From Deltaproteobacteria bacterium (GTDB taxonomy: Bacteria > Myxococcota_A > UBA9160 > UBA4427): a DNA stretch of 64,000 nucleotides. Positions 36,977 through 57,178 of the stretch are shown piece after piece. The stretch covers positions 62,001-126,000 of the forward strand of contig JAJDAN010000024.1 of the NCBI GenBank assembly GCA_029261855.1, read 5' to 3'. The translations under genes and the position numbers were made by a program. Each line of letters starts with the position of its first letter. Within the stretch, counting starts at the first letter, position 1. Below the pieces are notes generated by a model that was not told the origin of the DNA, did not search any database, and saw nothing but the letters and a program-made list of their open reading frames with translations.

Positions 36977-38281
36977 ATGACCGAGAGCACCTGGATCCCC
37001 TGGATCTACCTGGCCTTCAGCATCTGGTGCGCCTGGTTCAGCGCGAACGCGCACCTGCCCATGAAGAAGCGCGCGAAGCGCGCGACGCTGAGCTTCGCAG
37101 CGGGCTGGCTGACCACCGAGCTGGCGCTGCATCACATCGCCTGGCAGGGCATCGCGACGGCGGTCTTCTGGACGCTGGGCGCCTTCGAAGCCTGGCCGGG
37201 CTGGGTCGGCCTCGGTATCAGCGGAGTCTCGTGGGCCGCCTTGCTCGTCGCCCAGACGCAGGCGGCACGCGCCAAAGCCGTCTGCGAAGAGGCGCTCAGC
37301 AACGCATTCGGGAGCGACTATTTCGAGAGGATCCGCCCGGAGTACCGCAAGCATCTCGGACACGAACTCGACTGGAAGCGCCTGGTGCGGCCGTTCAAGA
37401 TCCGCCGCAAGGGTGTCGAGCGGATTCGCGACCTGCAGTACGGGCGTGGCGGCGGGCTGGATCTTCATCTCGACATCTATCGCAGCATCGTGCCCCCGCA
37501 GAACGGGCCGGTGCTGTTCCAGATCCACGGCGGTGGCTGGATGATGGGGAGCAAGGACGAGCAGGCGCTTCCTTTGATGAACCAGCTCGCCGAGATGGGC
37601 TGGGTGTGCGTGACGGTCAACTACCGCTTGAGTCCCCACGCCACCTTCCCCGAGCACCTGATCGACTGCAAGCGCGCACTGGCCTGGGTGAAGGAGAACA
37701 TCGCCGAGTATGGCGGCGACCCCGACTTCATCGCCGTGACCGGCGGATCGGCGGGCGGACACCTGTGCGCGTTGATGGGACTGACCCAGAACGATCCGGA
37801 ATACCAACCGGGCTTCGAGCAGGCGGACACGAGCGTCGCGTGCTGCCTCCCCTACTACGGGGTGTACGACTTCGCGAATCGAAGCGAGACCCACTACAAC
37901 GACGGCCTGACCCAGGTGCTCGAAACGAAGATCATGAAGGGCGCCCCCCACGAGATCCCCGAATCCTGGGACCGGGCGTCGCCCGTGACCCGCGTCAACG
38001 AGAGCACGCCCCCCTTCTTCCTGGTCCACGGCGAGAAGGACACGCTGGTGCCCGTGCTGGAGGCGCGCGAGTTTTCGAGGGTGCTCGGTGAGAAGAGCCC
38101 CACGCCCCATGGCTATGCCGAGCTTCCGGGGGCGCAACACGCGTTCGAGCTCTTCCTGTCCCTGCGGACGGCCCGGGTGAACGACGCATCCTGCCGCTAC
38201 CTGTCCCTCATGCACAGCGAATACCTGGACCGGCGCGCAGCTCACTCCACAGACCCGTCCGAGACGACGGCGAGCACATGA
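36977..38281 (+). CDS. Membrane-anchored alpha/beta hydrolase of the hormone-sensitive lipase type
   Basis: A 434-residue enzyme. The first 100 residues contain two to three membrane helices (about 6-23, 45-65 and 75-95). The catalytic domain has the HSL oxyanion motif IHGGGWMMGS (about 183-192), the nucleophile elbow GGSAGG (Ser258), Asp in LVHGEKDTLVP and His in GAQHAFELF. These enzymes hydrolyse short- to medium-chain esters. The stop overlaps the start of the carboxylesterase gene (ATGA), so the two esterases are cotranslated. The combination of helices and lipase domain suggests action on membrane lipids or hydrophobic esters, an inference. Confidence 0.88.
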   Translation: MTESTWIPWIYLAFSIWCAWFSANAHLPMKKRAKRATLSFAAGWLTTELALHHIAWQGIATAVFWTLGAFEAWPGWVGLGISGVSWAALLVAQTQAARAKAVCEEALSNAFGSDYFERIRPEYRKHLGHELDWKRLVRPFKIRRKGVERIRDLQYGRGGGLDLHLDIYRSIVPPQNGPVLFQIHGGGWMMGSKDEQALPLMNQLAEMGWVCVTVNYRLSPHATFPEHLIDCKRALAWVKENIAEYGGDPDFIAVTGGSAGGHLCALMGLTQNDPEYQPGFEQADTSVACCLPYYGVYDFANRSETHYNDGLTQVLETKIMKGAPHEIPESWDRASPVTRVNESTPPFFLVHGEKDTLVPVLEAREFSRVLGEKSPTPHGYAELPGAQHAFELFLSLRTARVNDASCRYLSLMHSEYLDRRAAHSTDPSETTAST

Positions 38282-39783
38282 CCATGGATCCGATCGCACA
38301 CACGACCACCGGCCCCGTCGAGGGGCGCGTCAAGGAGGGCGTGCTGCTCTTCGCCGGGATCCCCTATGCGGCGCCGCCCGTCGGGCCACTTCGCTTCGCG
38401 GCGCCGCAGCCCCACCCGGCGTGGACCGATGCGCTGCCCGCTCAACGTTTCGGGAACGCCGCGCCGCAGCCCGCGGGCAGCGGCATGACGTCGAGCCCGC
38501 CCCGCCGCATGGGCGAAGACTGCCTCACCCTGAACGTGACCACGCCGGCCCTCGACGACGCCGGGCGGCCGGTGCTCGTGTGGATCCACGGGGGCGGCTT
38601 CCGGACGGGTCAGGGTGCCATCCCCTGGTACAACGGCACCTCGTTCGCGACCCGGGGCGACATCGTCACGGTCAGCATCAACTACCGCCTGGGCGCCCTG
38701 GGCTTCGCGAACCTGTCCTTCCTGGGGGATGAGACAGCAGACACGGGGGCGGCCGGCATCCTCGACCAGATCGCCGCGCTCGAATGGGTGCGGGACAACA
38801 TCCGCGCGTTCGGCGGGGATCCGGCCCGCGTCACCGTCGCCGGCGAGTCCGCCGGCGCCATGAGCGTCGGCATCCTGCTGGGGTCGCCCGGTGCGAAGGG
38901 TCTGTTCCAACGCGCCATCGCCCAGAGCGGTGCGGCGCATCACGTACTGCGCCGAGAGACGGGCCAGGCCGTTGGCCGCAAGCTCGCACTCGCACTCGGC
39001 GCCGACAGCCTCGAGGCACTGCGCGACCTGCCCGCCGAGCGGATCCTGGAGGCCCAGAATCGCGTCGAAGCCGAGTTGTCCGGAAGCTCCGAGCGCGGCG
39101 CGACCGACATCGCGGGTGCGGCGGGTATGCCGTTCCAGCCGAGCTTCGGCTGCGCGGCACTCCCGGAGGCCCCCCTCGAAGCCGTGCGCAAGGGCATGGC
39201 GTCCGACGTCCCGTTGCTGATCGGGACCAACGCCCACGAGTCGACGCTATGGCACCAGGGCGAGACCGACGCGCGACGCCTCGAGAAGATCGCCGGGCGC
39301 TATCTGCCGGAAGCCGCCGCAGCCCTCGACGCGTACCGCCTGGACCATCCCGCGGGCTCCCCCTTCGACATCCTGATCGCGCTGACCACCGATCACATGT
39401 TCCGGATCCCGGCGCTCCGACTCGCCGAGGCCCATACCGCGACGGGCGGGCGCAGCTGGAACTACCTCTTCAGCTGGAAGTCGCGGGCGTTCGGCGGACG
39501 CATGGGCGCGACCCACGCGCTCGAGATCCCGTTCATCTTCAACAATCTCGAACGGATGGGCGTCGACGCCTTCATCGGGGAAGGCCCGCTGCCTCAGGCG
39601 CTGGCCAGCGAGATGCACGACAGCTGGATCGCTTTCATCCGCGACGGGTCGCCGGAGACGAGCGCACGCGCCTGGCCGAACTTCGACCCCGATCGGCGCG
39701 CCGCCATGGAGTTCGGCGACGAGATCGGCGTGCGCGACGACCCCTTTCCGAACAGCCGACGCGTCTGGGACGGCGTGCGCTGA
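38278..39783 (+). CDS. Type B carboxylesterase (first of two paralogues)
   Basis: A 501-residue carboxylesterase/lipase. The opening GPVEGRVKEGVLLFAGIPYAAPP, the EDCLTLNV signature, the oxyanion WIHGGGFRTGQG (about 102) and the nucleophile GESAGAMS (Ser191) are canonical. The Glu is in ALTTDHMFRIPAL to FSWKSR context and the catalytic His in GATHALEIPFIF. No signal peptide, so it is cytoplasmic. Coupled to the HSL-type hydrolase upstream. A second paralogue lies at 54296, and each has a copy of the seven-helix module close by. The substrate is not predictable. Confidence 0.92.
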   Translation: MTMDPIAHTTTGPVEGRVKEGVLLFAGIPYAAPPVGPLRFAAPQPHPAWTDALPAQRFGNAAPQPAGSGMTSSPPRRMGEDCLTLNVTTPALDDAGRPVLVWIHGGGFRTGQGAIPWYNGTSFATRGDIVTVSINYRLGALGFANLSFLGDETADTGAAGILDQIAALEWVRDNIRAFGGDPARVTVAGESAGAMSVGILLGSPGAKGLFQRAIAQSGAAHHVLRRETGQAVGRKLALALGADSLEALRDLPAERILEAQNRVEAELSGSSERGATDIAGAAGMPFQPSFGCAALPEAPLEAVRKGMASDVPLLIGTNAHESTLWHQGETDARRLEKIAGRYLPEAAAALDAYRLDHPAGSPFDILIALTTDHMFRIPALRLAEAHTATGGRSWNYLFSWKSRAFGGRMGATHALEIPFIFNNLERMGVDAFIGEGPLPQALASEMHDSWIAFIRDGSPETSARAWPNFDPDRRAAMEFGDEIGVRDDPFPNSRRVWDGVR

Positions 39784-40440: not shown

Positions 40441-41040
40441 TTGCACCCGCTTCTGGACCTAAGGCCCTGGCCGCGCGCCCTGCTGCAGTACCCCTTGCTG
40501 ATTCTGACGGCCGTCCTCCTGGGTGGCGCCCTCGCGTTCGTCTACTCGTACGCGCCGCTCCACCGCGCGAAGGACTGGGAGATCGCCTATCTCGAAGAGC
40601 GCCTGCAGACCCGCACCGAGCAGGTCGAGACTCTCGAGGCAGAGCTTCGCAAGGCGGAAGCGACCGTCCAGGGCCAGCCGTCGAATGACGAGGTCAAGTC
40701 TCTTCGGGCCCAACTCGACGAATCCCAGAGCCTGAGCGCGTCGCTGCAGAAGCAGGTCGGCGACCTCGAGCAGAAGCTGACCCAGGCGAATCGCAGCCGA
40801 GACTCCTGGAAGAAGAAGCACGGCGCACTGGTCGCCGAGGCCCAGACGCGGACCCGCAAGGCAGAGGTCGCGCGCGCCGAGAACGACAGACTCGAAGCCG
40901 ACGAGGTCGCGGGCGCTTCCGCGAACGCCACCCTTGCTGCGCCCCCCAAGGTCGATCCCGGACGAGACGATGCGTTCACGCCGCCGGCAGCGCCCGCACC
41001 CAACCTAGATCCGACGGAAGCCGACACCTCGGCACGCTGA
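40441..41040 (+). CDS. Single-pass membrane protein with long coiled coil
   Basis: A 199-residue protein of unknown function. It has one membrane helix (about 15-37, LLQYPLLILTAVLLGGALAFVYSY), then a heptad-patterned coiled coil from about 42 to 150 rich in Glu, Lys, Gln and Arg, and a Pro/Ala-rich tail. TTG 40441 is chosen because GGAGG lies nine bases upstream and no in-frame ATG exists nearby. It is 11 bases before the seven-helix protein gene with AAGGAA between, so it forms an operon with module copy 1. It has no counterpart beside module copy 2. Confidence 0.7.
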   Translation: MHPLLDLRPWPRALLQYPLLILTAVLLGGALAFVYSYAPLHRAKDWEIAYLEERLQTRTEQVETLEAELRKAEATVQGQPSNDEVKSLRAQLDESQSLSASLQKQVGDLEQKLTQANRSRDSWKKKHGALVAEAQTRTRKAEVARAENDRLEADEVAGASANATLAAPPKVDPGRDDAFTPPAAPAPNLDPTEADTSAR

Positions 41041-41051
41041 AAGGAACCTCC

Positions 41052-41807
41052 ATGCAACTCATCGCTGCAATCGGCGGTCTATCGTTCATTCTCGCGAGCC
41101 TGATCACAGGCGCACGCCTGCTGCTCGTTGCGCGCCGCACACGAGAGCTTCCGGAGCTGGCGCTCGGCGTCGGACTCTTCCTGATGGGCGGACTCGGCTA
41201 CCCGATGACGCTCCTTGCCGAGTTCGGAACCTTCCTGCCCGACGCAGCGCGCACGGGCCTCGTCGTGACGAACACCGTCTCCGGCGTGGTCGGCCTGACG
41301 CTGTTCGCCTTCTTCACGGCCCGCGTATTCCGACCCGAGAGCCGCGGTGCGCAGACTTCCGTGTGGTTCATCGGACTGCTCTTCTGCATCGCGTTCGTCT
41401 ACCGCGCGACCACCTACGGCTTCGCGCCGATGGCGCTCGACGGCGCCCGACCGCCGCTCCTCCACTCGCTCGTCACGGTCGTGGCGCTGGGATGGGCGGG
41501 GGCGGAGTCGCTCCTCTACCACGCGCGTCTGCGCAAGCGGATGCGCCTGGGCCTGACCGACCCCATCCTGGTCAATCGCATGTGGCTCTGGGCCCAGGGA
41601 ATGCTCGCTGCCATGCTGCTCACGGGCATCTCGAGCGCGTTCGCCGTCGCCGAGATTCCGTTCAACGACACGACGAGCGGAATCCTCACGATCGGGATCA
41701 TGGGAACCCTCGCCGCCGCGTCGATCTGGTTCGCCTTCTTCCCGCCCGGCGCCTACGTGCGCTGGATCCGGTCGCGCGCTGCCGCCATGACCACAGCGGC
41801 CGCTTGA
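41052..41807 (+). CDS. Seven-helix membrane protein, module copy 1 (unknown family)
   Basis: A 251-residue integral membrane protein with seven predicted helices: about 2-24, 36-58, 72-92, 104-120, 138-155, 173-193 and 205-227. It is homologous to the protein at 53063-53821. Shared landmarks are LLLxARRTRELPEL after helix 1, an xxGAES..Y...R.R.RLGLxDPxxxNRxxLWA segment leading into helix 6, and xFxPPxxYVRxIRSRA at the C terminus. No catalytic or transport motif is recognisable. The conserved charged loops face one side and could bind the small partner whose ATG overlaps this stop (TGATG). Role unknown. The repeated pairing is the main clue. Confidence 0.82.
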   Translation: MQLIAAIGGLSFILASLITGARLLLVARRTRELPELALGVGLFLMGGLGYPMTLLAEFGTFLPDAARTGLVVTNTVSGVVGLTLFAFFTARVFRPESRGAQTSVWFIGLLFCIAFVYRATTYGFAPMALDGARPPLLHSLVTVVALGWAGAESLLYHARLRKRMRLGLTDPILVNRMWLWAQGMLAAMLLTGISSAFAVAEIPFNDTTSGILTIGIMGTLAAASIWFAFFPPGAYVRWIRSRAAAMTTAAA

Positions 41808-42121
41808 TGCCCGATTCTCCGCTCTTCGGGTGGCTCTGCCACGAGCTGGCGGCGGCTACCGCGTTCAGCAGCATCGAGTCCCGCGGTACGGTCCGCATCG
41901 CGCTGAAAAAGGGCGGGCTCAATGCCGAGACCGTCACCGCGGTGCAGCTGCAGGTCGTCGTCAAGCGGGTCCTCCCCGAGGAGCTGCGTCGTCGCGGCTG
42001 CGACGACGGCCAGGCCGTCTGCGACGCCATCGCCATCCGGCTCAAGGACCAGAACTTCGGGGAAGCGGTCGACGGCCGCAGTCCGGAGGCGGTGTTCGCG
42101 CGACTCGGCTCGACGTCCTGA
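41807..42121 (+). CDS. Small soluble partner of the seven-helix protein, module copy 1
   Basis: A 104-residue helical protein without membrane segments. It is homologous to the protein at 53822-54151 through RGTVRIALKxxGLxAxxVTxxQLxVVxxxVLxxEL and a final AVFxRLGS/G. Its start codon overlaps the stop of the seven-helix gene (TGATG), so the two are made together. No known family was recognised; the fold looks like a small all-alpha regulatory or adaptor domain. Confidence 0.78.
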   Translation: MPDSPLFGWLCHELAAATAFSSIESRGTVRIALKKGGLNAETVTAVQLQVVVKRVLPEELRRRGCDDGQAVCDAIAIRLKDQNFGEAVDGRSPEAVFARLGSTS

Positions 42122-46246: not shown

Positions 46247-47587
46247 ATGCTGCTCGTCGCCCTGCTCGTCGCATCCGTCGTCTTCATCGTGGTTGCGACG
46301 ACCCGCCTGGGTCTGCATCCATTCGCGGCGCTCATCCTGGCCGCGCTCGGATTCGGACTGCTCTCGGGGATGCCCGCCGCGGACGTCGTCGCGGCGGTCA
46401 ACCAGGGCTTCGGCGGCATCCTCGGATACATCGGCATCGTGATCGTTGCGGGCACCATCATCGGCACCTTCCTCGAGCGCTCGGGCGGCGCGCTGCGACT
46501 GGCAGAGGCCACCTTGCGTCTGACCGGTCGCAAGAACGTCCCGGCCGGGATGGCACTCGTTGGTTGGACGGTCTCGCTTCCGGTCTTCTGCGACTCGGGC
46601 TTCGTCATCCTCTCGCCTCTCTGCAAGGCGCTCGCCGAGCGGACGCGCACGACCCTGGCGGCGGGCGCCATCGCCCTCGGCCTCGGTCTCTACGCAACCC
46701 ACACCATGGTGCCGCCGACTCCAGGCCCGGTCGCCGCCGCAGGCATCCTCGGTGCAGATCTGGGACGCGTGATCTTGTGGGGCAGCGTCGTGAGCGCCGT
46801 CGCCCTCGTCGCGGGGTGGCTGTTCGCAACTCACTACGCCGCGCGCTTCGAGATCGCCCCCTATCCCGACGGAGATGCGAAGGACGCGCGGACGGTCACC
46901 GCCCGGGACGGTCCTTCCGCGAGCCACGCTCTTGCCCCGATCCTCGCCCCGATCGTGCTGATCGTGGCGGGTTCGATCGCGAAGCTTCCCGGCCAGCCCC
47001 TGGGCGACGGGGTCCTGTGCGACACGATCGGTTTCTTCGGCGCGCCGATGGTCGCGCTACTGGTCGGCGCCGCCCTGTCGATCACCCTGCCGCGGCACTT
47101 CGACCGCAGCCGCCTCGGGTCCGACGGCTGGATCGGTCACGCCGTCGTATCGGCGGCGACGATCCTGGTGATCACCGGTGCGGGTGGGGCCTTCGGCAAG
47201 GTCCTCCAGGCGTCTGGCATCGCGGATGCCCTGGGCGGGACGCTGTCCGGTTCGGGTCTCGGGATCTGGCTGCCCTTCCTGCTCGCGGCCGCGATCAAGA
47301 CGGCCCAGGGCTCGTCGACAGTCGCGATCATCACGACGTCGGGACTCGTGGCCCCGCTGCTCGATCCCCTGGGACTCGACGGCGAGACGGCGCGCGCGCT
47401 CTGTGTCGTCGCCATCGGCGCGGGCTCGATGGTCGTTTCGCACGCCAACGACAGCTACTTCTGGGTGGTCACCCAGTTCTCGAACATGGACGTTTCCACC
47501 GGCTATCGCCTGCACACCCTCGGGACCGGAGTCCAAGGCGTCGTCGCGGCCCTGGCGGTCTGGACGCTGTCGCTGGTCCTGCTCTAG
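46247..47587 (+). CDS. GntP-family gluconate/H+ symporter-like permease
   Basis: A 446-residue permease with about twelve to thirteen helices. Family landmarks are FGLLSGMPAADVVAAVNQGFGG, VSLPVFCDSGFVILSPL, THTMVPPTPGPVAAAGILGAD, AAIKTAQGSSTVAIITTSG and HANDSYFWVVTQFS. These match GntP/GntT and imply uptake of gluconate or a related hydroxy acid with protons. Length is normal. No sugar-acid kinase or dehydrogenase is adjacent, so the substrate is open. It follows the ExeA-like gene after eight bases, although the two have no clear functional tie. Confidence 0.92.
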   Translation: MLLVALLVASVVFIVVATTRLGLHPFAALILAALGFGLLSGMPAADVVAAVNQGFGGILGYIGIVIVAGTIIGTFLERSGGALRLAEATLRLTGRKNVPAGMALVGWTVSLPVFCDSGFVILSPLCKALAERTRTTLAAGAIALGLGLYATHTMVPPTPGPVAAAGILGADLGRVILWGSVVSAVALVAGWLFATHYAARFEIAPYPDGDAKDARTVTARDGPSASHALAPILAPIVLIVAGSIAKLPGQPLGDGVLCDTIGFFGAPMVALLVGAALSITLPRHFDRSRLGSDGWIGHAVVSAATILVITGAGGAFGKVLQASGIADALGGTLSGSGLGIWLPFLLAAAIKTAQGSSTVAIITTSGLVAPLLDPLGLDGETARALCVVAIGAGSMVVSHANDSYFWVVTQFSNMDVSTGYRLHTLGTGVQGVVAALAVWTLSLVLL

Positions 47588-47649
47588 ACCTGCTCTGTCC
47601 CCACGTCTTCCCGCGCCCCGCGCTCCTCCCACTCCCCGCGCGGCGACAC

Positions 47650-47683
47650 CGCAGATATTTAACTTGAAAGTTAACTATCTGCG
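47650..47683. promoter_or_regulatory. 34-bp near-perfect inverted repeat (operator) with overlapping promoter
   Basis: Left arm CGCAGATATTTAACTT (47650-47665) and right arm AAGTTAACTATCTGCG (47668-47683) pair at 15 of 16 positions around a 2-base centre. It is the most AT-rich spot in the region. TTGAAA (47664-47669) and TACGAA (47687-47692) with a 17-base spacer form a plausible promoter whose start would fall at the cupin ATG. A bound dimer would cover the -35 box. The ArsR protein of the operon is the obvious candidate. Confidence 0.65.
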
Positions 47684-47699
47684 TGTTACGAAGACGGGC

Positions 47700-48050
47700 A
47701 TGCAATCACACGATCCCCGCCAGGTGCTCGCGGATCTGCCCGAGATGGAGTTCCGCCAGCTCGCGAAGTTCAACCAGGGGCACGTCGGCGTCTTCTGGGC
47801 CGACGGCGGCCGATCGCCCTGGGAGCGGCATCCCGACGACGATGAGCTGCTCCAGATCCTCGAAGGCGAAGTCCTGGTCACCGTCCTCACCGAAGAGGGT
47901 CCCGTCGAGACGCGCGTACCGGCGGGATCGAGCTTCGTGGTACCCCGCGGCCACTGGCACCGGCAGGAGCTGCGCGGCAAGGTGCTCGAGCTGTACGTGA
48001 CACCGGGACGCTCGGAGCACTCCACCGCAGACGATCCGCGTGAAGACTGA
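47700..48050 (+). CDS. Cupin-domain protein
   Basis: A 116-residue single-domain cupin. The metal-binding motifs are recognisable: SPWERHPDDDELLQILEGEVLV gives His/Glu ligands and the second motif gives VPAGSSFVVPRGHWHRQEL with His. Small cupins of this type may be isomerases, dioxygenases or metal-linked sensors. First gene of a five-gene run (cupin, VOC, ArsR, SRPBCC, MFS) behind the strong palindrome at 47650. No Shine-Dalgarno is present and the predicted transcript start is at the ATG, so it may be leaderless. Confidence 0.85.
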   Translation: MQSHDPRQVLADLPEMEFRQLAKFNQGHVGVFWADGGRSPWERHPDDDELLQILEGEVLVTVLTEEGPVETRVPAGSSFVVPRGHWHRQELRGKVLELYVTPGRSEHSTADDPRED

Positions 48051-48060
48051 GGAGCGAGCG

Positions 48061-48495
48061 ATGTCATCGAACCCGGCGGGCGAAGCCCCGCGCCTGGTCC
48101 CCATGCTGAGCTACGCCGACGCCCCGGCCGCAATCGACTTCCTGGCCAAGGCGTTCGGCTTCGACGAGCTCTACCGGCTGGAAATGCCAGACGGCAAGAT
48201 CGGCCACGCCGAGCTCGGATACGACGGTGTACGGGTCATGCTCGCATCCGAGTACCCGGCCCTCGGGCTCGAGAGCCCCCGTGCGCTCGACACCCGCTAC
48301 AGCCAGATCTACGTCTCTGTAGACGACGTCGACGCGCACTACGCCCGCGCGCGGGAGGCCGGGGCGACCATCGCGGCGGCACCTGCCGACCAGGACTACG
48401 GTGACCGCATCTACCGCGCCTCGGACCCGGAAGGACACCGCTGGATCTTCGGGACCCGTCTCTCTCGAGGGCGCGTGACAGCCGAGCGCACGTGA
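48061..48495 (+). CDS. VOC-family (glyoxalase/bleomycin-resistance) protein
   Basis: A 144-residue protein built of two beta-alpha-beta-beta-beta units: PMLSYADAPAAIDFLAKAFGFDELYRLEM with GHAELGYDGVRVML, then IYVSVDDVDAHYARAREAGATI with YGDRIYRASDPEGHRWIFG. This is the PhnB/YdfO-like branch often encoded beside SRPBCC and ArsR genes. It may bind or modify a small molecule. GAGGAG precedes ATG 48061. Ten bases follow the cupin stop. Confidence 0.9.
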   Translation: MSSNPAGEAPRLVPMLSYADAPAAIDFLAKAFGFDELYRLEMPDGKIGHAELGYDGVRVMLASEYPALGLESPRALDTRYSQIYVSVDDVDAHYARAREAGATIAAAPADQDYGDRIYRASDPEGHRWIFGTRLSRGRVTAERT

Positions 48496-48535
48496 GAGCC
48501 GAGCCCATGAGAGCCGAGCACACATGAGAGCGAAG
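48476..48535 (+). repeat. Four imperfect repeats of RTGA(G/C)AGCCGAG across a gene junction
   Basis: Copies at 48476, 48492, 48507 and 48524 are spaced 16, 15 and 17 bases apart. Each begins with a GTG or ATG in a different frame. The second contains the VOC stop codon and the last contains the ArsR start codon. Confidence 0.7.
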
Positions 48536-48889
48536 CAGACCCGGCGCGTGGACGACGCCCTCGCAGCGCTGGCCGATCCGACGCGGCGCCAGATGATCGA
48601 CCTGCTGCGGGAGCGACCGCGCCGGGCCGGCGAGCTCGCAGCCGCCTTCGACGTGTCCGCCCCCGCGGTCAGCCGCCACCTGCGCGTCCTGCGCACACGC
48701 GGCTTGATCGAGGAAGAGCCGGCTCCCCAGGACGCACGACTGCGCGTCTATCGCCTGCGCCAGAAACCCTTCCAGGACCTGCAGGCGTGGCTCGACGAGG
48801 TCGAAGGCTTCTGGACCGAGCAGCTGGACTCGTTCCGCGCATTGGCCGACGCGCGCGGGCGCAGCCGGCGTCCCGGAGGCGACCGATGA
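48524..48889 (+). CDS. ArsR-family transcriptional regulator
   Basis: A 121-residue winged-helix repressor: ALADPTRRQMIDLL, GELAAAFDVSAPAVSRHLRVLRTRGLIEEE and a beta-wing with LRVYRL. No cysteine metal site is present, so it is of the non-metal type commonly encoded with SRPBCC proteins. It overlaps the SRPBCC gene (ATGA). Probable autoregulator acting at the palindrome at 47650. The next gene products may make or remove its ligand. The start ATG 48524 sits in the last copy of a short repeat. Confidence 0.9.
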   Translation: MRAKQTRRVDDALAALADPTRRQMIDLLRERPRRAGELAAAFDVSAPAVSRHLRVLRTRGLIEEEPAPQDARLRVYRLRQKPFQDLQAWLDEVEGFWTEQLDSFRALADARGRSRRPGGDR

Positions 48890-49386
48890 GCGAGGGCCAG
48901 CGCGAGCAGGATGCGGTCCACACCAGCACCGTCGTCTCCGTAGACCCCGCCCTGGCCTTCGAGATCTTCACCGACGAGGTCGACAGTTGGTGGAAGCACG
49001 GCCCGCGTTTCCGGACGGGCGCCCGCGACCAGAGCCGCATGCGCTTCGAGGCGGGGGTCGGGGGACGGCTCCTCGAGGTCTTCGACGACGATGCCGAGCC
49101 CTTCGTACTCGGCGTCGTCACGGTCTGGGAACCCCCTCGTCAGCTCTGCTTCGAGATGCGCGGCCGGGACTTCGGCCCGGGGGAGAAGACCGACGTCGAG
49201 GTGCGCTTCGAGACGACGCGGAGCGGCACCCGCGTGTCGGTCATCCACCGCGGCTGGGCGGCGTTCGCGAGCGACCATCCCGTACGCCACGGGCTCACGG
49301 GCGACGCCTTCGGCGCCATGATGGGCGTCTTCTGGGGTGACCTGCTGGTCGCACTCGGCGATCGGAGTCGGAGCCGGAGTCGGTGA
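48886..49386 (+). CDS. SRPBCC-family (AHSA1-like) protein
   Basis: A 166-residue START/Bet v1-like domain. The pattern VSVDPALAFEIFTDEVDSWWKHGPRFRTG, VGGRLLEVFDDD, VLGVVTVWEPPRQLCFEMR and a final helix GDAFGAMMGVFWGDLLVAL is typical of AHSA1-type SRPBCC proteins in ArsR operons. The cavity binds hydrophobic ligands. Coupled to ArsR by a four-base overlap, and its own stop overlaps the GTG of the MFS gene. The C terminus ends in a short Ser-Arg repeat (RSRSRSR). Confidence 0.9.
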   Translation: MSEGQREQDAVHTSTVVSVDPALAFEIFTDEVDSWWKHGPRFRTGARDQSRMRFEAGVGGRLLEVFDDDAEPFVLGVVTVWEPPRQLCFEMRGRDFGPGEKTDVEVRFETTRSGTRVSVIHRGWAAFASDHPVRHGLTGDAFGAMMGVFWGDLLVALGDRSRSRSR

Positions 49387-50636
49387 GCACAGGCTCCGGA
49401 TCCGGCGGCAGCCGCCATTCCCTGGCCTTCATCATGATCACGATCATGCTCGACTCGATCGGTTTCGGGATCATCCTCCCGGTCGTACCCGAGCTGATCA
49501 TGGAACTAACGGGCGAGGGCCTCACCGAAGCCGCGCGCTACGGCGGTTGGTTGCTCTTCTCCTATGCGTTGATGCAGTTCGTGTTCGCACCGGTGCTCGG
49601 GAACCTGAGCGATCGTTTCGGACGACGTCCCGTGCTGCTCTGCTCGCTGGCGGTCTTCGGCCTGGACTATCTGGTGATGGCCGCCGCTCCGAGCCTGGCG
49701 TGGCTCTTCGCAGGGCGCATCGTCGCGGGCATGATGGGCGCGACACACACCACCGCCAACGCCTACGTGGCGGACGTCAGTCCTCCGGAAACGCGCGCAC
49801 AGAACTTCGGCATGATCGGGGCCGCCTGGGGTTTCGGCTTCATCCTGGGCCCCGTCATCGGCGGCTTGCTGGGTGATCTGGGACCGCGGGTTCCCTTCGT
49901 CGCGGCCGCCGGGCTCGCGTTCGTGAACGTGATCTACGGCCTCGTCGTCCTGCCCGAAACGCTCCCGCGCGAAAGCCGCCGCCCCTTTCAGCTCACCCGC
50001 GCCAACCCCATCGGCGCTCTCGCGCAGATGCGCGCCTATCCCTTCGTGATCGGCGCCCTGGCGTCCGTGGTGCTGTACCAGATCGCTCACGACGCCAACC
50101 CGAGCACGTGGACCTACTACACGATGCTGAAGTTCGACTGGTCCGAGCGCGAGATCGGCTATTCCATGGGCGCGGTGGGCGCCCTGCTCACCCTCGTCCA
50201 GGCCGGAGGCATCCGCATCGCCATGGCCTGGCTCGGCGACCGTCGCTGCGTATTCGTCGGCCTGTCCTTCATGGCGATCGGCTACGCGGGCTTCGCGGCG
50301 TCCAGCGAGAGCTGGATGATGTACGTATTCATGGTCCCCTTCGCCCTCGGTGGGATCGCGATGCCCGCGCTGCGCGGGATCCTGTCGAACGAGGTCCCCG
50401 GGAACGCCCAGGGCGAGCTCCAAGGTGCCATCAGCAGCATCGGCAGCCTGACCGCCATCGGGGCGCCGGTCTTCATGACCCAGCTGTTCGGGCTCTTCAC
50501 AGCGAGCGCGACCCCGGTGTACTTTCCCGGCGCGCCGTTCCTGGCTGCCTCGGTCCTGGTCGTGTTCGGCACGCTCTGGTTCTGGCGGGTCCTGCGTGTC
50601 TCGCCGCCCCGCGCAGGCGGCCAGTCGAGCGCCTGA
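49383..50636 (+). CDS. MFS transporter (TetA-like drug/H+ antiporter)
   Basis: A 417-residue major facilitator with about twelve helices. The first helix [16 protein letters not shown] and the loop motif [14 protein letters not shown] (motif A) are characteristic of TetA/MdtG-type exporters. Motif C-like [16 protein letters not shown] lies in helix 5. Export of a hydrophobic small compound is expected. It is the last gene of the cupin-to-MFS operon, translationally coupled to the SRPBCC gene, which suggests ligand sensing, modification and export as one unit (inference). Confidence 0.93.
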
Positions 50637-50689
50637 TCGCGCCCCTCTCGCCTCCTCCCCCTCGTCCCCCTCCTCGAATCGGAGCCCGC

Positions 50690-52105
50690 ATGAGATCCTT
50701 CGAGAGCGTCCTGGCCTTCTTCCTGATCGCGCTGCTCGGTTGCGGCGGCGAGCCGGTCCCCACCGTCGACGTTCGCCTCCCCGCGTCGCCGCCGTCGTCG
50801 GTCCTGATCCAGGACGTCTCGGTGTTCGAAGTAGAGACGGGAACGGTCACACCCAACCGGGACGTGCTGCTCGAAGCTGCGTTGATCGTCGGCATCGAAC
50901 CTCACGGCCGGCTCGAAGGGCGTGGCGACACGCTGATCGTGGATGGCGCCGGCGCGACCCTCGTCCCCGGCCTGATCGACATGCACGGGCACATCGTTTC
51001 GAACAGCAACCCGAGCTGGAACCGCGGATCCCCCGACCCCGAGGCCAACCTGCGCGCCTACGCGTACGCGGGTGTGACGACGGTATTCGATCCATCGGAC
51101 ATGTCCGACGATCCCTGGGGACGGCGCGCGCGCGTCGCCGCCGGCGAACTCGTGGGGCCGCGCATCTTCACCACGGGACCGCTGCTCACCACCCCCGACG
51201 GTCACCCCATCGCGATCATCCAGCAGCTCGCACCCTGGTGGATCTCGTGGTACCTCGAAGGACTGGTGGCGGTTCCCCTCCCCGACGTCGCGGCCGCAGA
51301 GAAACAGGTCGATGCCATCGCGACGAATGGCGCCGACGCGGTGAAGATCGTGATCGACGCCATCCCGCTCGAAGCCCCTCGCATGCCGCCCGAAATCGCC
51401 AAGGCCGTCGTCGAGCGCGCGAGAAGCCACGGGTTGAGGACGGTCGCCCACATCGGGACGACCCAGGACGCCCGCGAGGCGGCCGACGCCGGAGTCGCTC
51501 TCTGGGTCCACGGTGTCTACAAAGAGCGGATCCCGGACGACCAGATCGCCGTGCTCGCCGCCTACGGCATCCCGATGGTCGCGACCGTCGAGGTCTTCGA
51601 CCGCTACGCGCGCGGCTCGCGGGGGCCGATCGTTCCCACGCGCCTGGAACGGGAGACCGTGCCGGCCGACGTGCTCGAGTCGTTCTACCCGGTGCCGTCG
51701 GACTTCGAAGTGGGCACGCTCCGCGGTTGGCTCGAGCTCGCAGGCGAGACCATGGACATCCGCATCGACAACGTGCGACGACTCCGTGAAGCCGGTGTCA
51801 CCATTCTGGCGGGCAGCGACACCCAGTCCGGGGTGTTCCCCGGCGCGGGACTCCACCGCGAGCTCGGCCACCTGGTGCGCACCGGCATGACCCCCGCGGA
51901 AGCCATTCGCGCAGCGACCCTCGACGCCGCGATCTGGCTGGCGGACGGGGACGAGCCCGATTCGGGGATCATCGCCGTGGGCAAGCGAGCCGACCTGCTG
52001 CTCGTGGAAGGAGATCCGACACGGGACCTGGACGCGCTTTCCGACCTGCGCGCGGTGTTCCTGGCGGGCATGCCCATCGAACGCACGCCGGTACCCGGCC
52101 CCTGA
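50690..52105 (+). CDS. Lipoprotein amidohydrolase (imidazolonepropionase-like)
   Basis: A 471-residue secreted metal hydrolase. The N terminus FLIALLGCGGE is a lipoprotein signal. The metal site opens with LIDMHGHIVSNSNPS, later ligands are in KIVIDAIPLEAP (Lys), VAHIGTTQDAREAAD (His), WVHGVYKE (His) and ILAGSDTQSGVFPG (Asp), and the C-terminal strand GIIAVGKRADLLLVEGDPT is typical of the family. It likely cleaves peptide-like or lactam bonds in the periplasm. GGAG precedes ATG 50690. A 53-base gap separates it from the MFS gene. Confidence 0.92.
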   Translation: MRSFESVLAFFLIALLGCGGEPVPTVDVRLPASPPSSVLIQDVSVFEVETGTVTPNRDVLLEAALIVGIEPHGRLEGRGDTLIVDGAGATLVPGLIDMHGHIVSNSNPSWNRGSPDPEANLRAYAYAGVTTVFDPSDMSDDPWGRRARVAAGELVGPRIFTTGPLLTTPDGHPIAIIQQLAPWWISWYLEGLVAVPLPDVAAAEKQVDAIATNGADAVKIVIDAIPLEAPRMPPEIAKAVVERARSHGLRTVAHIGTTQDAREAADAGVALWVHGVYKERIPDDQIAVLAAYGIPMVATVEVFDRYARGSRGPIVPTRLERETVPADVLESFYPVPSDFEVGTLRGWLELAGETMDIRIDNVRRLREAGVTILAGSDTQSGVFPGAGLHRELGHLVRTGMTPAEAIRAATLDAAIWLADGDEPDSGIIAVGKRADLLLVEGDPTRDLDALSDLRAVFLAGMPIERTPVPGP

Positions 52106-52142
52106 CGCACGGCGCACGCTGCTGGACTCAACACCTAGGAGC

Positions 52143-52164
52143 GTGCGCGGCAAGGGCCGCGCAC
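52143..52164. terminator. Hairpin 1 between convergent genes
   Basis: GTGCGCGGC-AAGG-GCCGCGCAC is a perfect nine-pair stem between the amidohydrolase and GDPD stop codons. It has no U-tract in either direction. Confidence 0.45.
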
Positions 52165-52173
52165 CCGCAGCAA

Positions 52174-52193
52174 GCCGGAACCCCGGTTCCGGC
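52174..52193. terminator. Hairpin 2 between convergent genes
   Basis: GCCGGAACC-CC-GGTTCCGGC is a second perfect nine-pair stem, ten bases after the first and four bases before the GDPD stop. The two probably form a bidirectional terminator. Confidence 0.45.
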
Positions 52194-52197
52194 CCGG

Positions 52198-53097
52198 CTA
52201 GGGCAGCGAGCCTGCCGAGCCCCGGTTCTCGAGCAAGCGGTGGATCAGCTTTTCCGGCCAGTCGATCGTCATGCCGTTACTCCCGACCGCGATTGCGTGC
52301 TCCATATCGTCCAGGCTCTTGATGCTCCAGGCACGGATCCAGAGGCCCCGGGCGCGGGCATCCGCGACGTGTTCCTGCGAGATCTCCTGAGCAGCAACGC
52401 CCACCTCGCGGAAGCCGGAGTCTGCGGCGCGCTCGATCCAGTCGGCGACTGAGCCCTCGCGACGATCGGCTTTCAGGATGAGCAGACAGATCGGCAGTTC
52501 GGGCGCGAGCTCGTGCATGCGCACGAGCTGATCGAATCGAAAAGAGGTGACGATGACCCGGTCGTGCAGCGCGAAGCGATCGACGACCTCGAGCACCCGG
52601 GCGGAGAGACCGGGCTCGCCGTCCTTGAGCTCGACGTGGTAGACGAACGCGCGGCCCATCTCCTCGAAGAGGTCTGCGAGGGCGGCGAGCTTCGTCCCCG
52701 CGAAGCGCTTCGGCGCGTCCGGGTGCGAGGCATCGAACCAGGCTCCGATGTCCACCTCGCGCAGCTCGGCGAGGGGATGGTCCCGGACGCTCCCGGCCTG
52801 CCGGGTCTTGGGACGGAGCAGGCTGTCGTGGAAGAGGACGACCTGATCGTCCGCGCTGAGCTGGACGTCGAGCTCGACCTCGACGGCACCCAGCCGCTGG
52901 GCCTCGCGGAACGCAGGCAGGGTGTTCTCGGGCGCATAGGCGGACGCACCCCGGTGGGCGATGACCTGGAACGGCCGCGGGAACGCCGTCGGGTGCGGCT
53001 CGGCGAGAGCCCGGCAGCTCGCGAGCGGCAGCGCTGCGAGCGCTGCAATCAGCGCAGCGATCCTACGCAGACGCGTGGGCGGCGTTCCGTTCGGCAC
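52198..53097 (-). CDS. Glycerophosphodiester phosphodiesterase, lipoprotein
   Basis: A 299-residue GDPD. The signal ends in lipobox LPLASC, so it is membrane-tethered and exported. The TIM-barrel active site shows VIAHRGASAYAPENT (His, Arg, Glu), VEVELDVQLSADDQVVLFHD (Glu, Asp, His) and YHVELKDGE. It releases glycerol-3-phosphate and an alcohol from deacylated phospholipids. GTG 53097 overlaps the end of the seven-helix gene by 35 bases, so it is in one operon with module copy 2. Confidence 0.9.
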   Translation of the reverse strand: MPNGTPPTRLRRIAALIAALAALPLASCRALAEPHPTAFPRPFQVIAHRGASAYAPENTLPAFREAQRLGAVEVELDVQLSADDQVVLFHDSLLRPKTRQAGSVRDHPLAELREVDIGAWFDASHPDAPKRFAGTKLAALADLFEEMGRAFVYHVELKDGEPGLSARVLEVVDRFALHDRVIVTSFRFDQLVRMHELAPELPICLLILKADRREGSVADWIERAADSGFREVGVAAQEISQEHVADARARGLWIRAWSIKSLDDMEHAIAVGSNGMTIDWPEKLIHRLLENRGSAGSLP

Positions 53098-53821
53098 GGG
53101 ACCGGATGTAGCGCACGTAGAAGGCCGGCGGAATGAAGGCCAGCGCGATGGCGATCGCGGCGACCAGGCCGTGCAGCGACGAGCTGACCATCACCCAACC
53201 ACCGTCGGTAGTCGTTGCGCCGCTGACGAGCTGCCCGACCAGTCCAACCGCCGTACCCCAGCCCGCGGCGAACGCACCGATGGCCCACATCAGGAAGCGG
53301 TTCGAGACGACGGGGTCCGCCAGACCGAGGCGCACCCGGAGCCGCATCTTCGTCCAGTAGGCGAACGACTCGGTGGCCCCCCAGAGCAAGCAGCCGATCT
53401 GGAGCGAGCTGCGGAAAAGCGAGCTCGGCTCGAGAGGATCGGGTGCCTGGAAGCCGTGGTAGAGGCCTGCGTAGACGAGGCTTCCGAACAAGCCGATGCC
53501 GGCGAGCAACGCGATCGCGCGGGCGACCTGCGAGTCCGGGTGGTAGACGCGCCAGTTGAAGACGAACTTCGCAAAGGCGCCGCAACTCACCGCGAACAGC
53601 GCCACAGCGAGCATCGCCGTGTAGACGGCGGGGCGCGTCGTCTCGAACTGACGGGCGAACACCATCAGGCCGAAGCCCACGGGCCCGATTCCGAGCACGC
53701 CGATGCCCATGAGCAATTCGGGTAGCTCTCGGGTCCGGCGCGCGAGCAGGAGCACACGGACGCCCACCACCAGCGCCACCACGAAGAAGGCGATGAAGCC
53801 GACCCACACGAGACCGCCCAT
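53063..53821 (-). CDS. Seven-helix membrane protein, module copy 2 (unknown family)
   Basis: A 252-residue membrane protein with seven predicted helices, homologous over its length to the protein at 41052-41807. Identical blocks are LLARRTRELPEL after helix 1, RLGLxDPxxxNRFLMWA-type loop before helix 6, and the C-terminal PPAFYVRYIRSRA. Helices 2-5 are more divergent. Its ATG directly follows the stop of the small partner gene with no spacing, so here the partner is translated first, the reverse of copy 1. Downstream it overlaps the GDPD gene. Function unknown. Confidence 0.82.
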   Translation of the reverse strand: MGGLVWVGFIAFFVVALVVGVRVLLLARRTRELPELLMGIGVLGIGPVGFGLMVFARQFETTRPAVYTAMLAVALFAVSCGAFAKFVFNWRVYHPDSQVARAIALLAGIGLFGSLVYAGLYHGFQAPDPLEPSSLFRSSLQIGCLLWGATESFAYWTKMRLRVRLGLADPVVSNRFLMWAIGAFAAGWGTAVGLVGQLVSGATTTDGGWVMVSSSLHGLVAAIAIALAFIPPAFYVRYIRSRAERNAAHASA

Positions 53822-54151
53822 CTACGAGCCACCGCCAAGGCGGCTGAAGACGGCATCGGGCGTCTCGCTGCCCCCGGCCATCGCGAGCTGTTGGCCCTCA
53901 CTGGCGAGCGCCGTGACGAAGCCCGCGCACAGGCTCCCCGCATCGGCGATCCCGCGAGCCGTCAACTCGGCCTCGAGAACCTTGTCGATCACCACCTTGA
54001 GCTGATCGGGTGTGACCGAGCGCGCGTCGAGACCGGCGCTCTTCAGAGCCAGTCGTACCGTCCCGCGTGCCTCGAGCCGGTCGAGCGAGGTGTCCTGCTC
54101 GAGCCGCGAGCACATCCAATCGAATGCCGGTGCGTCAGCCATGCGTCGCAT
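53822..54151 (-). CDS. Small soluble partner of the seven-helix protein, module copy 2
   Basis: A 109-residue helical protein homologous to the one at 41807-42121: LEARGTVRLALKSAGLDARSV, QLKVVIDKVLEAELTARGI and final DAVFSRLGGGS. GGAGGGG immediately precedes ATG 54151. ATG 54142 is an alternative start matching copy 1 more closely. It is the first gene of the operon with the seven-helix and GDPD genes, and divergent from the second carboxylesterase. Confidence 0.78.
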   Translation of the reverse strand: MRRMADAPAFDWMCSRLEQDTSLDRLEARGTVRLALKSAGLDARSVTPDQLKVVIDKVLEAELTARGIADAGSLCAGFVTALASEGQQLAMAGGSETPDAVFSRLGGGS

Positions 54152-54295: not shown

Positions 54296-55924
54296 ATGGA
54301 CCTCGACGAGCCCTGCGTGGATACCGGTGGAGGCCGCGTTCGCGGAGCGCGCGAGGACGGGATCTGCGCATTTCGCGGCGTCCCGTTCGCCGCGGCGCCG
54401 GTCGCCGCGCGACGGTTCCAGCCGCCGCAGCCGGCCGCCACCTGGCCCGGGACGCTGGACGCCCGGCAGTACGGTCCGGCCCCACTGCAACGGGTCGACC
54501 CATTGTCGAATCAGATCGGTCTCGACTTCCCCGGCCCCCTGGACGAGGACTGCCTGCAGCTGAACGTCTGGACTCCGGCGACCGACGACGGCGGCCGGCC
54601 GGTGATGGTGTGGCTCCACGGCGGGGCCTTCGCGACAGGCTCCGGGACCTCACCCGCCTACGCGGGTCACCGCATCGCCGCTCGCGGCGACGTGGTCGTG
54701 GTGACCCTGAACTACCGGGTCGGCGCCCTGGGCTTCCTGCACCTGGCGCCGCTCGTACCCGGCGTCGATGGCGCCAACCTGGGCCTGCTCGACCAGCTGG
54801 CCGCCCTGCAGTGGGTCCGCCGGGAGATCCGCTCGTTCGGCGGCGACCCGGACCGCGTTTGCTTGTTCGGCGAGTCGGCAGGCGCCGGCAGCTGCGTCGC
54901 CCTGCTGGCCATGCCGGCCGCCCGCGGCTTGTTCGCACGCGTCATCGTGCAAAGCGCGGCGCCCGACGGCATGCTGACCACCGAAGAGGGGACGGCGCGG
55001 GCGCAGCTCTTCCTCGACCAGCTCGACCTGCTCGACCCCGGCGGCGCGACATCCGGACTCGCACGGCTTCAGTCCGTGCCCACAGAGCAGCTGCTCGCGG
55101 CCCAGGCGGCGTGCATTGCCGCGGGCCCCCACCGGACGGGCATGTTCTTCGCGCCGGTCATCGGCGGGGAGAGCCTCCCCGAACGCCCGCTACACGCGAT
55201 CGCGCGCGGCAGCGCACGCGACGTCGGCGTCCTCATTGGAAGTACTGCCGAGGAGATGCAGCTGTACGCAACGGTGCCCGGCCTGGGCGACTTCCCCGAC
55301 GCGATCCTCGAGCAGGTGGTGGCGTCCCGGCTCGACGCCGACGCAGAGGAACGCGACGTACAGGCCGCACGCGCCGTGGCGCTCTACCGCGCAGAGCTGA
55401 CCCCCGCACCCCCAGCCGCCCTGTCCCAGCGCGACCTGTTCTTCGCACTCGAGACCGACCTGAGCCTGCGAGTGCCCGCGACGCAGCTCGCCAGTCGTCA
55501 GGCACAGCTCCAACCCGAGACCTTCATGTACCTGTTCGACTGGCGCTCGCCCATGTCCGACGGCCACGGCGGTCAGCTCGGCGCCTGTCACGCCCTCGAC
55601 CTGCCCTTCACCTTCGGCTGTCTGTCCGGGGGGCCGGCGCTGGCCTTCGCGGCCGGAGACGACCCGGGCATGCAGCAACGGGCACGCGTGCTTTCGGACC
55701 GACTCATCGACGCCTGGACGGCGTTCGCCCGGACCGGAGACCCGAGTCACCCGGGCATCGGCAACTGGCCGCGCTACGACACGCCGCAGCGCACCACCAT
55801 GCTGCTCGGTGACACCTGCCGCACCTGCGACGCGCCGCTGGAGGAGAGGCGCGCTGTCTGGGAGGGATGCTTCGGGTCACTGCCCGATCTCGAGCCCAGG
55901 CCCGAGCCCGGGCCCCAGGGCTGA
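54296..55924 (+). CDS. Type B carboxylesterase (second paralogue)
   Basis: A 542-residue carboxylesterase with AFRGVPFAAAPVAARRF, EDCLQLNVWTP, the oxyanion WLHGGAFATGSG, nucleophile GESAGAGS (Ser194) and His in GACHALDLPFTF. It is related to the enzyme at 38278 but diverged and longer. ATG 54296 gives the standard family N terminus; an in-frame upstream extension to 53891 would cross the divergent promoter. No signal peptide. The Cys pair near the end (TCRTCDAP) is unusual. The end is Pro/Glu-rich. Confidence 0.92.
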   Translation: MDLDEPCVDTGGGRVRGAREDGICAFRGVPFAAAPVAARRFQPPQPAATWPGTLDARQYGPAPLQRVDPLSNQIGLDFPGPLDEDCLQLNVWTPATDDGGRPVMVWLHGGAFATGSGTSPAYAGHRIAARGDVVVVTLNYRVGALGFLHLAPLVPGVDGANLGLLDQLAALQWVRREIRSFGGDPDRVCLFGESAGAGSCVALLAMPAARGLFARVIVQSAAPDGMLTTEEGTARAQLFLDQLDLLDPGGATSGLARLQSVPTEQLLAAQAACIAAGPHRTGMFFAPVIGGESLPERPLHAIARGSARDVGVLIGSTAEEMQLYATVPGLGDFPDAILEQVVASRLDADAEERDVQAARAVALYRAELTPAPPAALSQRDLFFALETDLSLRVPATQLASRQAQLQPETFMYLFDWRSPMSDGHGGQLGACHALDLPFTFGCLSGGPALAFAAGDDPGMQQRARVLSDRLIDAWTAFARTGDPSHPGIGNWPRYDTPQRTTMLLGDTCRTCDAPLEERRAVWEGCFGSLPDLEPRPEPGPQG

Positions 55925-55934
55925 GCGCTTCGTC

Positions 55935-56783
55935 TCAGGCCTTGCGCGGCGACGTGATCTCGAGGACCACCTCGGCGACGCCGTCTGCTTCGGTGACGAT
56001 CGGGAAGATCCAACCACCGCTCGGGAGGACGCCGTAGCACGGCGCTTCGAGCCGCAGCTCGTAGCCCTGCTCTTCCAGAGTCGCGACGACGTTGCCCATC
56101 ATGATGTTGAGGAACTCGCCCACGGCCTCGAGTGCGAGCTCCGAAGCCAGCGTGTCGAGTTGCATTCCCAGCAGACCCCGCGCCAGGCGCTCGCCGAAGA
56201 CGCGCTCCACCATCAGGGTGACCCGCAGGGGTCTCGTCCCCACCGCCTCCGTCGAGGCCAGCAACACTCGATCGGGCGCCTCGGTCAGCGGCTCGCCGCC
56301 CCCCAGCTTGACGGGCATGTCAGCGACCCGCCGAAACATCCGCTCGAGCAGGCCGACGACCAGGTCGGCGGTCGGGCTGCCGTGCAGCGGCGCGGGGAGC
56401 TCTACGCCGAGGCTGGGGAACTGCTCCTGTTCGCTCTTCCACTCGTCGTACAGGTCGCGCGCCCGGTCGTCCTGGAGGCATCCCAGCTCGACGAGCCCGG
56501 CGGCCAGGTCGACCCGGGTCTCGCGCTGCTGCTGGAGCAGCTCCTCGAGCTCGATCGAATTCAGCACGCCCATCTGCATGGCGAGTTCGCCAAAGGGGAG
56601 ATCGGTGCGGCGCTGCTCGTCGTTCACGCGACGACAGTCCGCCTCGGTTGCGAAGCCTTCCGCGACCGCCAGCTCGCCGATGTTCGGATTCAGCTCGTCC
56701 ATCAGGTCCAGGGCCTGGCGCAGCTGGACCTCTTCGATCTCGCCCCGGCGAAGCAGGAACTGTCCGAAGAACTCGGGCCTCAC
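55935..56783 (-). CDS. CheX-like phosphatase-type protein with N-terminal helical repeats
   Basis: A 282-residue protein. The N-terminal part has two related helical units (FGQFLLRRGEIEEVQLRQAL and FGELAMQMGVLNSIELEELL) like the N-terminal domain of type II/IV pilus ATPases. The C-terminal half resembles CheX/CheC: EAVGEFLNIMMGNVVATLEEQGYEL echoes the E-x2-N phosphatase helix, here Glu and Asn in GEFLNIM. It probably dephosphorylates or reads the state of the CheY-like protein whose stop overlaps its GTG (56780-56783). The pair is a compact two-gene signalling unit; the output is unknown. Confidence 0.78.
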   Translation of the reverse strand: MRPEFFGQFLLRRGEIEEVQLRQALDLMDELNPNIGELAVAEGFATEADCRRVNDEQRRTDLPFGELAMQMGVLNSIELEELLQQQRETRVDLAAGLVELGCLQDDRARDLYDEWKSEQEQFPSLGVELPAPLHGSPTADLVVGLLERMFRRVADMPVKLGGGEPLTEAPDRVLLASTEAVGTRPLRVTLMVERVFGERLARGLLGMQLDTLASELALEAVGEFLNIMMGNVVATLEEQGYELRLEAPCYGVLPSGGWIFPIVTEADGVAEVVLEITSPRKA

Positions 56784-57178
56784 GACCGGCCCTCCACACC
56801 GATCCGCTCCATCTCGCGTTCGAGAACGGACTCGATCTGATCCGCATCGAAGGGCTTGGCGATCATCTGGACCGCGCCGAGACGGAACGCTTCTTGTGCG
56901 GTGCTCTCGGACCCGGCGACGGAGGAGATCATGACGACCCGCGCCTTGGGCTGAGTCGCGCCGATGATCCGAAGCGCCGAGAGTCCGTCCATACCTGGCA
57001 TAACGATGTCCATGAGAATGAGATCGGGCTTCGTGAAGGCCGCAGTGCGCACCGCTGCGGCGCCATCGGTCGCCTTGCCAACCAGATCCACGCCGTCGAC
57101 CCCAGCGAGGATCTGCTCCAGCTGTGTGATCACGAGCTTGCTGTCGTCCACGATCAGGACCTTCAGGCCGTCGGCCAA
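56780..57178 (-). CDS. CheY-like single-domain response regulator
   Basis: A 132-residue receiver domain: acidic pair VLIVDDSK, phospho-acceptor Asp in PDLILMDIVMPGMDG, Thr/Ser position in VVMISSVAG and conserved Lys in MIAKPFDADQ. It has no output domain. It is translated with the CheX-like gene downstream. A kinase is not encoded in the window. Probably a shuttle or adaptor in motility, pilus or developmental control, an inference from the N-terminal domain of its partner. Confidence 0.93.
   Translation of the reverse strand: MADGLKVLIVDDSKLVITQLEQILAGVDGVDLVGKATDGAAAVRTAAFTKPDLILMDIVMPGMDGLSALRIIGATQPKARVVMISSVAGSESTAQEAFRLGAVQMIAKPFDADQIESVLEREMERIGVEGRS

Follow-up and report, generated by a model that had tools for sequence, protein, structure and literature searches.

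The window analysed in the present study, a 64,000-nucleotide stretch of a Deltaproteobacteria bacterium genome (GCA_029261855.1, contig JAJDAN010000024.1), contains two copies of a two-gene unit encoding a seven-helix membrane protein and a small soluble protein. Copy 1 lies on the plus strand, with the membrane gene (41052..41807, 251 aa) followed by the small gene (41807..42121, 104 aa), the stop and start codons overlapping as TGATG. Copy 2 lies on the minus strand 10.9 kb away and has the small gene first (53822..54142, 106 aa), its TAG stop at 53824-53822 directly abutting the ATG at 53821 of the membrane gene (53063..53821, 252 aa). The reading frame of the copy 2 small gene (54151-53822) is also open from an ATG at 54151; the start at ATG 54142 is more likely, judging from its alignment with the MAD... 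start of the family. The original prediction, that the same two genes recur about 11 kb away on the other strand in reversed order and with zero spacing, agrees with these coordinates and reading frames, and the homology of the copies that it assumed was borne out by alignment, with 35% identity between the membrane proteins over 243 aa (E=5e-26) and 42% between the small proteins (E=5e-28). Both copy 1 products also match the family profiles, the copy 1 membrane gene being in addition an open reading frame; the copy 2 calls are based on the open reading frames, AlphaFold2 models and, respectively, family alignment A4 for the small protein, and homology to copy 1 and charge distribution for the membrane protein.

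Upstream of copy 1 is an open reading frame for a coiled-coil protein with a single transmembrane (TM) helix (40441..41040, plus strand), and the end of copy 2 is overlapped by a gene for a GDPD-family lipoprotein (52198..53097, minus strand; Pfam PF03009, E=1.6e-35). These companions had been correctly placed in the original prediction, but the GDPD gene is a neighbour and not a conserved partner or part of the module, being absent beside the pair orthologous to copy 2 in G001, G028, G024 and L015 (loci L106, L107, L108 and L015). A homologue of the coiled-coil gene ends contig C666 of G001, a genome of the same genus, in which the TM gene opens contig C701; it is possible that the coiled-coil gene adjoins the copy 1 orthologue across these contig ends. 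No match to the coiled-coil protein was found in G008 or G046, and the gene may be retained with copy 1 at the genus level only. A single G001 contig carries both pairs, with three genes between them (ABC-F, a 175-aa protein and an AAA protein); a block of ~7 kb between the pairs of the window (46247-53097), comprising transporter, cupin, ArsR-like, MFS, amidohydrolase and GDPD genes, is absent from the matching G001 interval (L106). Homologous type-B carboxylesterase genes (38278-39783 and 54296-55921, both on the plus strand; 39% identity) flank the two pairs of the window, and no esterase is present beside pair 2 at L106. A CheY-like gene and a gene for a 282-aa protein past pair 2 (55938-57178) are kept with the pair at the same G001 locus, a response-regulator link at the genus level. 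The loci read yielded no conserved neighbours of the pair beyond genus-level synteny and no fusion of TM genes to a signalling domain, predicted TM genes being at most 288 aa long; fusions hinted at by long open frames received no support from gene calls based on codon usage. Searches for Rfam families and tRNAs gave no match within the window.

The unit occurs in many copies in uncultured relatives of the myxobacteria. The source genome (7.0 Mb, 91 contigs) encodes 13 seven-helix and five small proteins, arranged as three pairs, two solo small genes and ten solo membrane genes, and copy numbers peak at 40 membrane and 23 small genes in one relative. Across 31 close genomes we identified 136 membrane genes and 65 small genes, 44 of the latter lying within 130 bp of a membrane gene on the same strand. 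Chance alone would place only 0.06 of them on the strand of a membrane gene and less than 1 kb from it; this adjacency is not a chance arrangement. Among 379 genomes of the phylum, 59 carry both families and 311 neither, with five having the small protein only and four the membrane protein only (Fisher p 5e-58, a statistic that ignores ancestry), and the copy numbers of the two families correlate across 19 carriers (rho 0.65). When 84,980 species genomes were scanned for the small protein with conserved peptide patterns, which may miss distant members, the named carriers belonged to Myxococcota or were delta-proteobacterial MAGs, a part of them bearing no label beyond Proteobacteria or bacterium. 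Pfam and NCBIfam gave no credible match for either protein. The weak matches are scattered and share no family: 7tm_2 (E 0.077) and PF07695 (E 0.066) in one of 52 membrane proteins each, and DEK_C (0.017) in two of the 65 small proteins. PADLOC, run with the TM proteins only, likewise gave no credible match, and a literature search of partial coverage found no paper on the two-gene family.

Adjacent pairs in the 31 close genomes comprise 38 in membrane-first and six in small-first order, with G008 supplying about half. In a tree of 104 membrane proteins, copy 2 clusters with small-first pairs of other species (support 100/100), whereas copy 1 falls beside its orthologue from the same genus, among further pairs that are membrane-first or part of arrays. 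The small-first label changes nine times on this tree, at least seven of these changes being forced by well-supported branches. In Polyangia-like genomes the small gene comes first in seven of nine single-copy pairs, the two membrane-first cases belonging to one genus, and small-first may be the ancestral order, with the caveat that the tree lacks a known root. Repeated flips of order with persisting adjacency argue for a joint function; to this extent the comparison favours the earlier proposal that the two products work together.

The same proposal held that a plain duplication would have kept the gene order, so that the genes must have been re-paired. Counting and ordering pairs in related genomes upheld the reversal, and indeed revealed repeated changes, but did not uphold a local event. 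Recent re-pairing after segmental duplication is extremely improbable: the pairs lie 10.9 kb apart on opposite strands and have homologous carboxylesterases nearby, but the copies are deeply diverged, copy 2 has orthologues of the same order and about 80% identity in other species, and the trees place the two copies in separate clades. The copies are old paralogues and not products of local duplication, each belonging to an older lineage. Head-to-tail tandem arrays of two or three repeats (L141-L143, L086, L040 and L046) offer a route to reversal without re-pairing. Where an array reads TM-sm-TM-sm-TM-sm, as at L141-L143, loss of genes at its ends would leave either order, as read from the array anatomy rather than from an observed event. 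The arrays and trees suggest that the family would have grown by tandem and dispersed duplication with single-gene loss, which would account for both the order reversal and the solo genes. The tempting inference from the reversed order is thereby corrected, as the order reflects old lineages.

The AlphaFold2 model of the copy 2 membrane protein (pLDDT 95.6) has seven TM helices and a C-terminal amphipathic cytoplasmic helix 8, and the placement of positive charges in all 52 relatives examined follows the positive-inside rule for a protein with the N-terminus outside and the C-terminus inside. In the outer fifth conservation is 0.72 bits, climbing to 2.25 bits in the inner fifth (rho 0.65), and the invariant polar residues gather in the inner half. 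Such a gradient suits a receptor whose inputs vary and whose inner partner stays the same; conservation on the cytoplasmic side would suit an enzyme as well. The nearest PDB folds of the model are nearly all G-protein-coupled receptors (GPCRs), with a best Z of 13.5, a best Foldseek E of 0.017 (none under 0.001) and top TM-scores of 0.53-0.56, and GPCRs also fill much of the realigned list. We regard the likeness of the predicted fold as moderate, at a level that helical bundles can reach by arrangement alone, and do not claim homology; a search of PDB chains with the family profile found none at E up to 10. A microbial rhodopsin identity was ruled out by the lack of a conserved TM7 lysine for retinal, lysine occurring at any TM7 column in at most one of 52 sequences.

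The copy 2 small protein is predicted to be all-helical, with four to five helices (pLDDT 88.5), and an RGTxR motif and a glycine further on (RGTxR..G) are invariant in 65 small proteins of the family alignment. Comparison of its fold with PDB and viral structures gave no good match (best Z 5.3; GIPC GH2 Z 4.0).

We compared 72 paired with 30 solo membrane proteins over 38 columns, ancestry not being removed. The largest differences are at Y235, P232, V92 and N174, followed by F88, all towards the cytoplasmic side. Y235 is kept in 97% of paired versus 70% of solo proteins, P232 in 99% versus 77% and N174 in 90% versus 63%, and for these three the difference persists among representatives sharing less than 50% identity (p 0.002 to 0.004). 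Equally kept in both groups are R22, E35, W147, E151 and R162, of which W147 and E151 are buried and E35 and R162 lie in loops. The inner face is likely a docking site, as suggested by these paired versus solo differences among 38 columns with ancestry not removed. A mirror-tree correlation seen within one genome was lost on removal of close duplicates (r=0.08, 12 pairs), and one-to-one matching of partners is therefore without mirror-tree support.

Genomics gives good support to a function that the two products have in common. As the genes stay side by side through order flips, it is probable that their products cooperate, with sensing as the most likely role, and we give a probability of roughly one half to the reading that the seven-helix protein is a membrane sensor whose cytoplasmic partner is the small helical protein. 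The reading draws directly on the existence of the two families, on the folds predicted for them, on their co-occurrence and their adjacency in two orders, and on the conservation gradient, from which we infer a sensing role, with a ligand and an output, and direct contact between the proteins. The variable outer face of the membrane protein would meet different signals, and the conserved inner face would act on a common partner, presumably the small protein, encoded adjacently or elsewhere in the genome. The small protein would dock at the inner loops and where TM7 meets helix 8, and once docked would pass the signal on or set receptor activity. A more specific version, in which Myxococcota possess a large prokaryotic family of GPCR-fold chemoreceptors signalling via a small helical adaptor of their own in the cytoplasm, a receptor-transducer system that relies neither on fused kinases or cyclases nor on rhodopsin, is put forward tentatively, as a possibility that we consider rather unlikely.

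Conserved inner residues (R22, E35, E151, D169, N174, R175 and Y235) could instead form the cytoplasm-facing active site of a membrane enzyme, for example one modifying lipids, with the small protein as an activator or assembly subunit. In favour are the gathering of invariant polar residues in the inner half and, with no background count taken, the many lipid and acyl-CoA genes among the neighbours, but no known enzyme motif was recognised, no credible family match was obtained, and a family whose outer half is free to vary and which reaches 40 divergent copies in a genome is more in keeping with sensing than with a single reaction; on balance we consider an enzyme unlikely. A transporter or channel regulated by a small subunit would also explain why a seven-helix membrane protein shares an operon with a soluble one, but is harder still to reconcile with an outer half that is hardly conserved, PDB neighbours that are receptors and the lack of a credible transporter family match, and is improbable. 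A toxin-antitoxin or immunity-type pair, in which the small protein neutralises the membrane protein, would suit a compact two-gene unit with many copies, a small gene that is often first and solo small genes, but is very improbable given that ten of the 13 TM genes of the source genome lack an adjacent small gene, that Polyangia-like genomes retain single-copy pairs and that the TM proteins have no credible PADLOC match.

The sensor and partner arrangement can be set beside three known systems. Anabaena sensory rhodopsin (ASR) and its transducer ASRT similarly combine, in one operon, a seven-helix membrane sensor and a 14-kDa soluble protein (PMC3267196), and by analogy with them the pair may work as a receptor that hands over to a soluble transducer encoded separately. 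In contrast to ASR, the family described here lacks the conserved TM7 retinal lysine and has many copies in both gene orders; ASRT is a beta-sandwich (PMC2739507), whereas the small protein is predicted to be all-helical. The 7TMR-DISM proteins likewise have seven helices, a proposed sensing role and several paralogues per genome (up to 14 in Leptospira; PMC6107284), but carry fused domains, cytoplasmic signalling and/or extracytoplasmic DISMED ones (PMC6107284), whereas the TM genes here encode ~250 aa without fusion, the soluble part is a separate gene, and a single one of 52 members touches the 7TMR-DISM model PF07695 (E 0.066). Membership of 7TMR-DISM was rejected on this fusion architecture (PMC6107284), as no fused signalling or DISMED domain was found in the loci read. 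Eukaryotic GPCRs of the adhesion/class B type resemble the modelled protein in the external N-terminus, seven helices, helix 8 and nearest PDB folds, but the profile search of PDB chains detected no sequence similarity, one of 52 members touches 7tm_2 (E 0.077), the structural scores are moderate, and the family has no known G protein or arrestin partner, its neighbour being a small unnamed helical protein. If the sensor reading is right, a bacterial lineage runs a GPCR-like receptor family of up to 40 copies per genome in which a separate small protein takes the signal, providing a simple prokaryotic model for the coupling of seven-helix receptors and a way to test how diversity of the outer face is linked to a common inner partner.

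Two further loci show irregular members of the family. A cluster of four solo membrane genes (L105:1208-5769) has no small gene nearby, and three of the four have degenerate TM7-helix 8 junctions. Just upstream of an intact small-first pair, a membrane gene is split over two frames (L108:2494-3124) and looks like either a copy in decay or an error of assembly.
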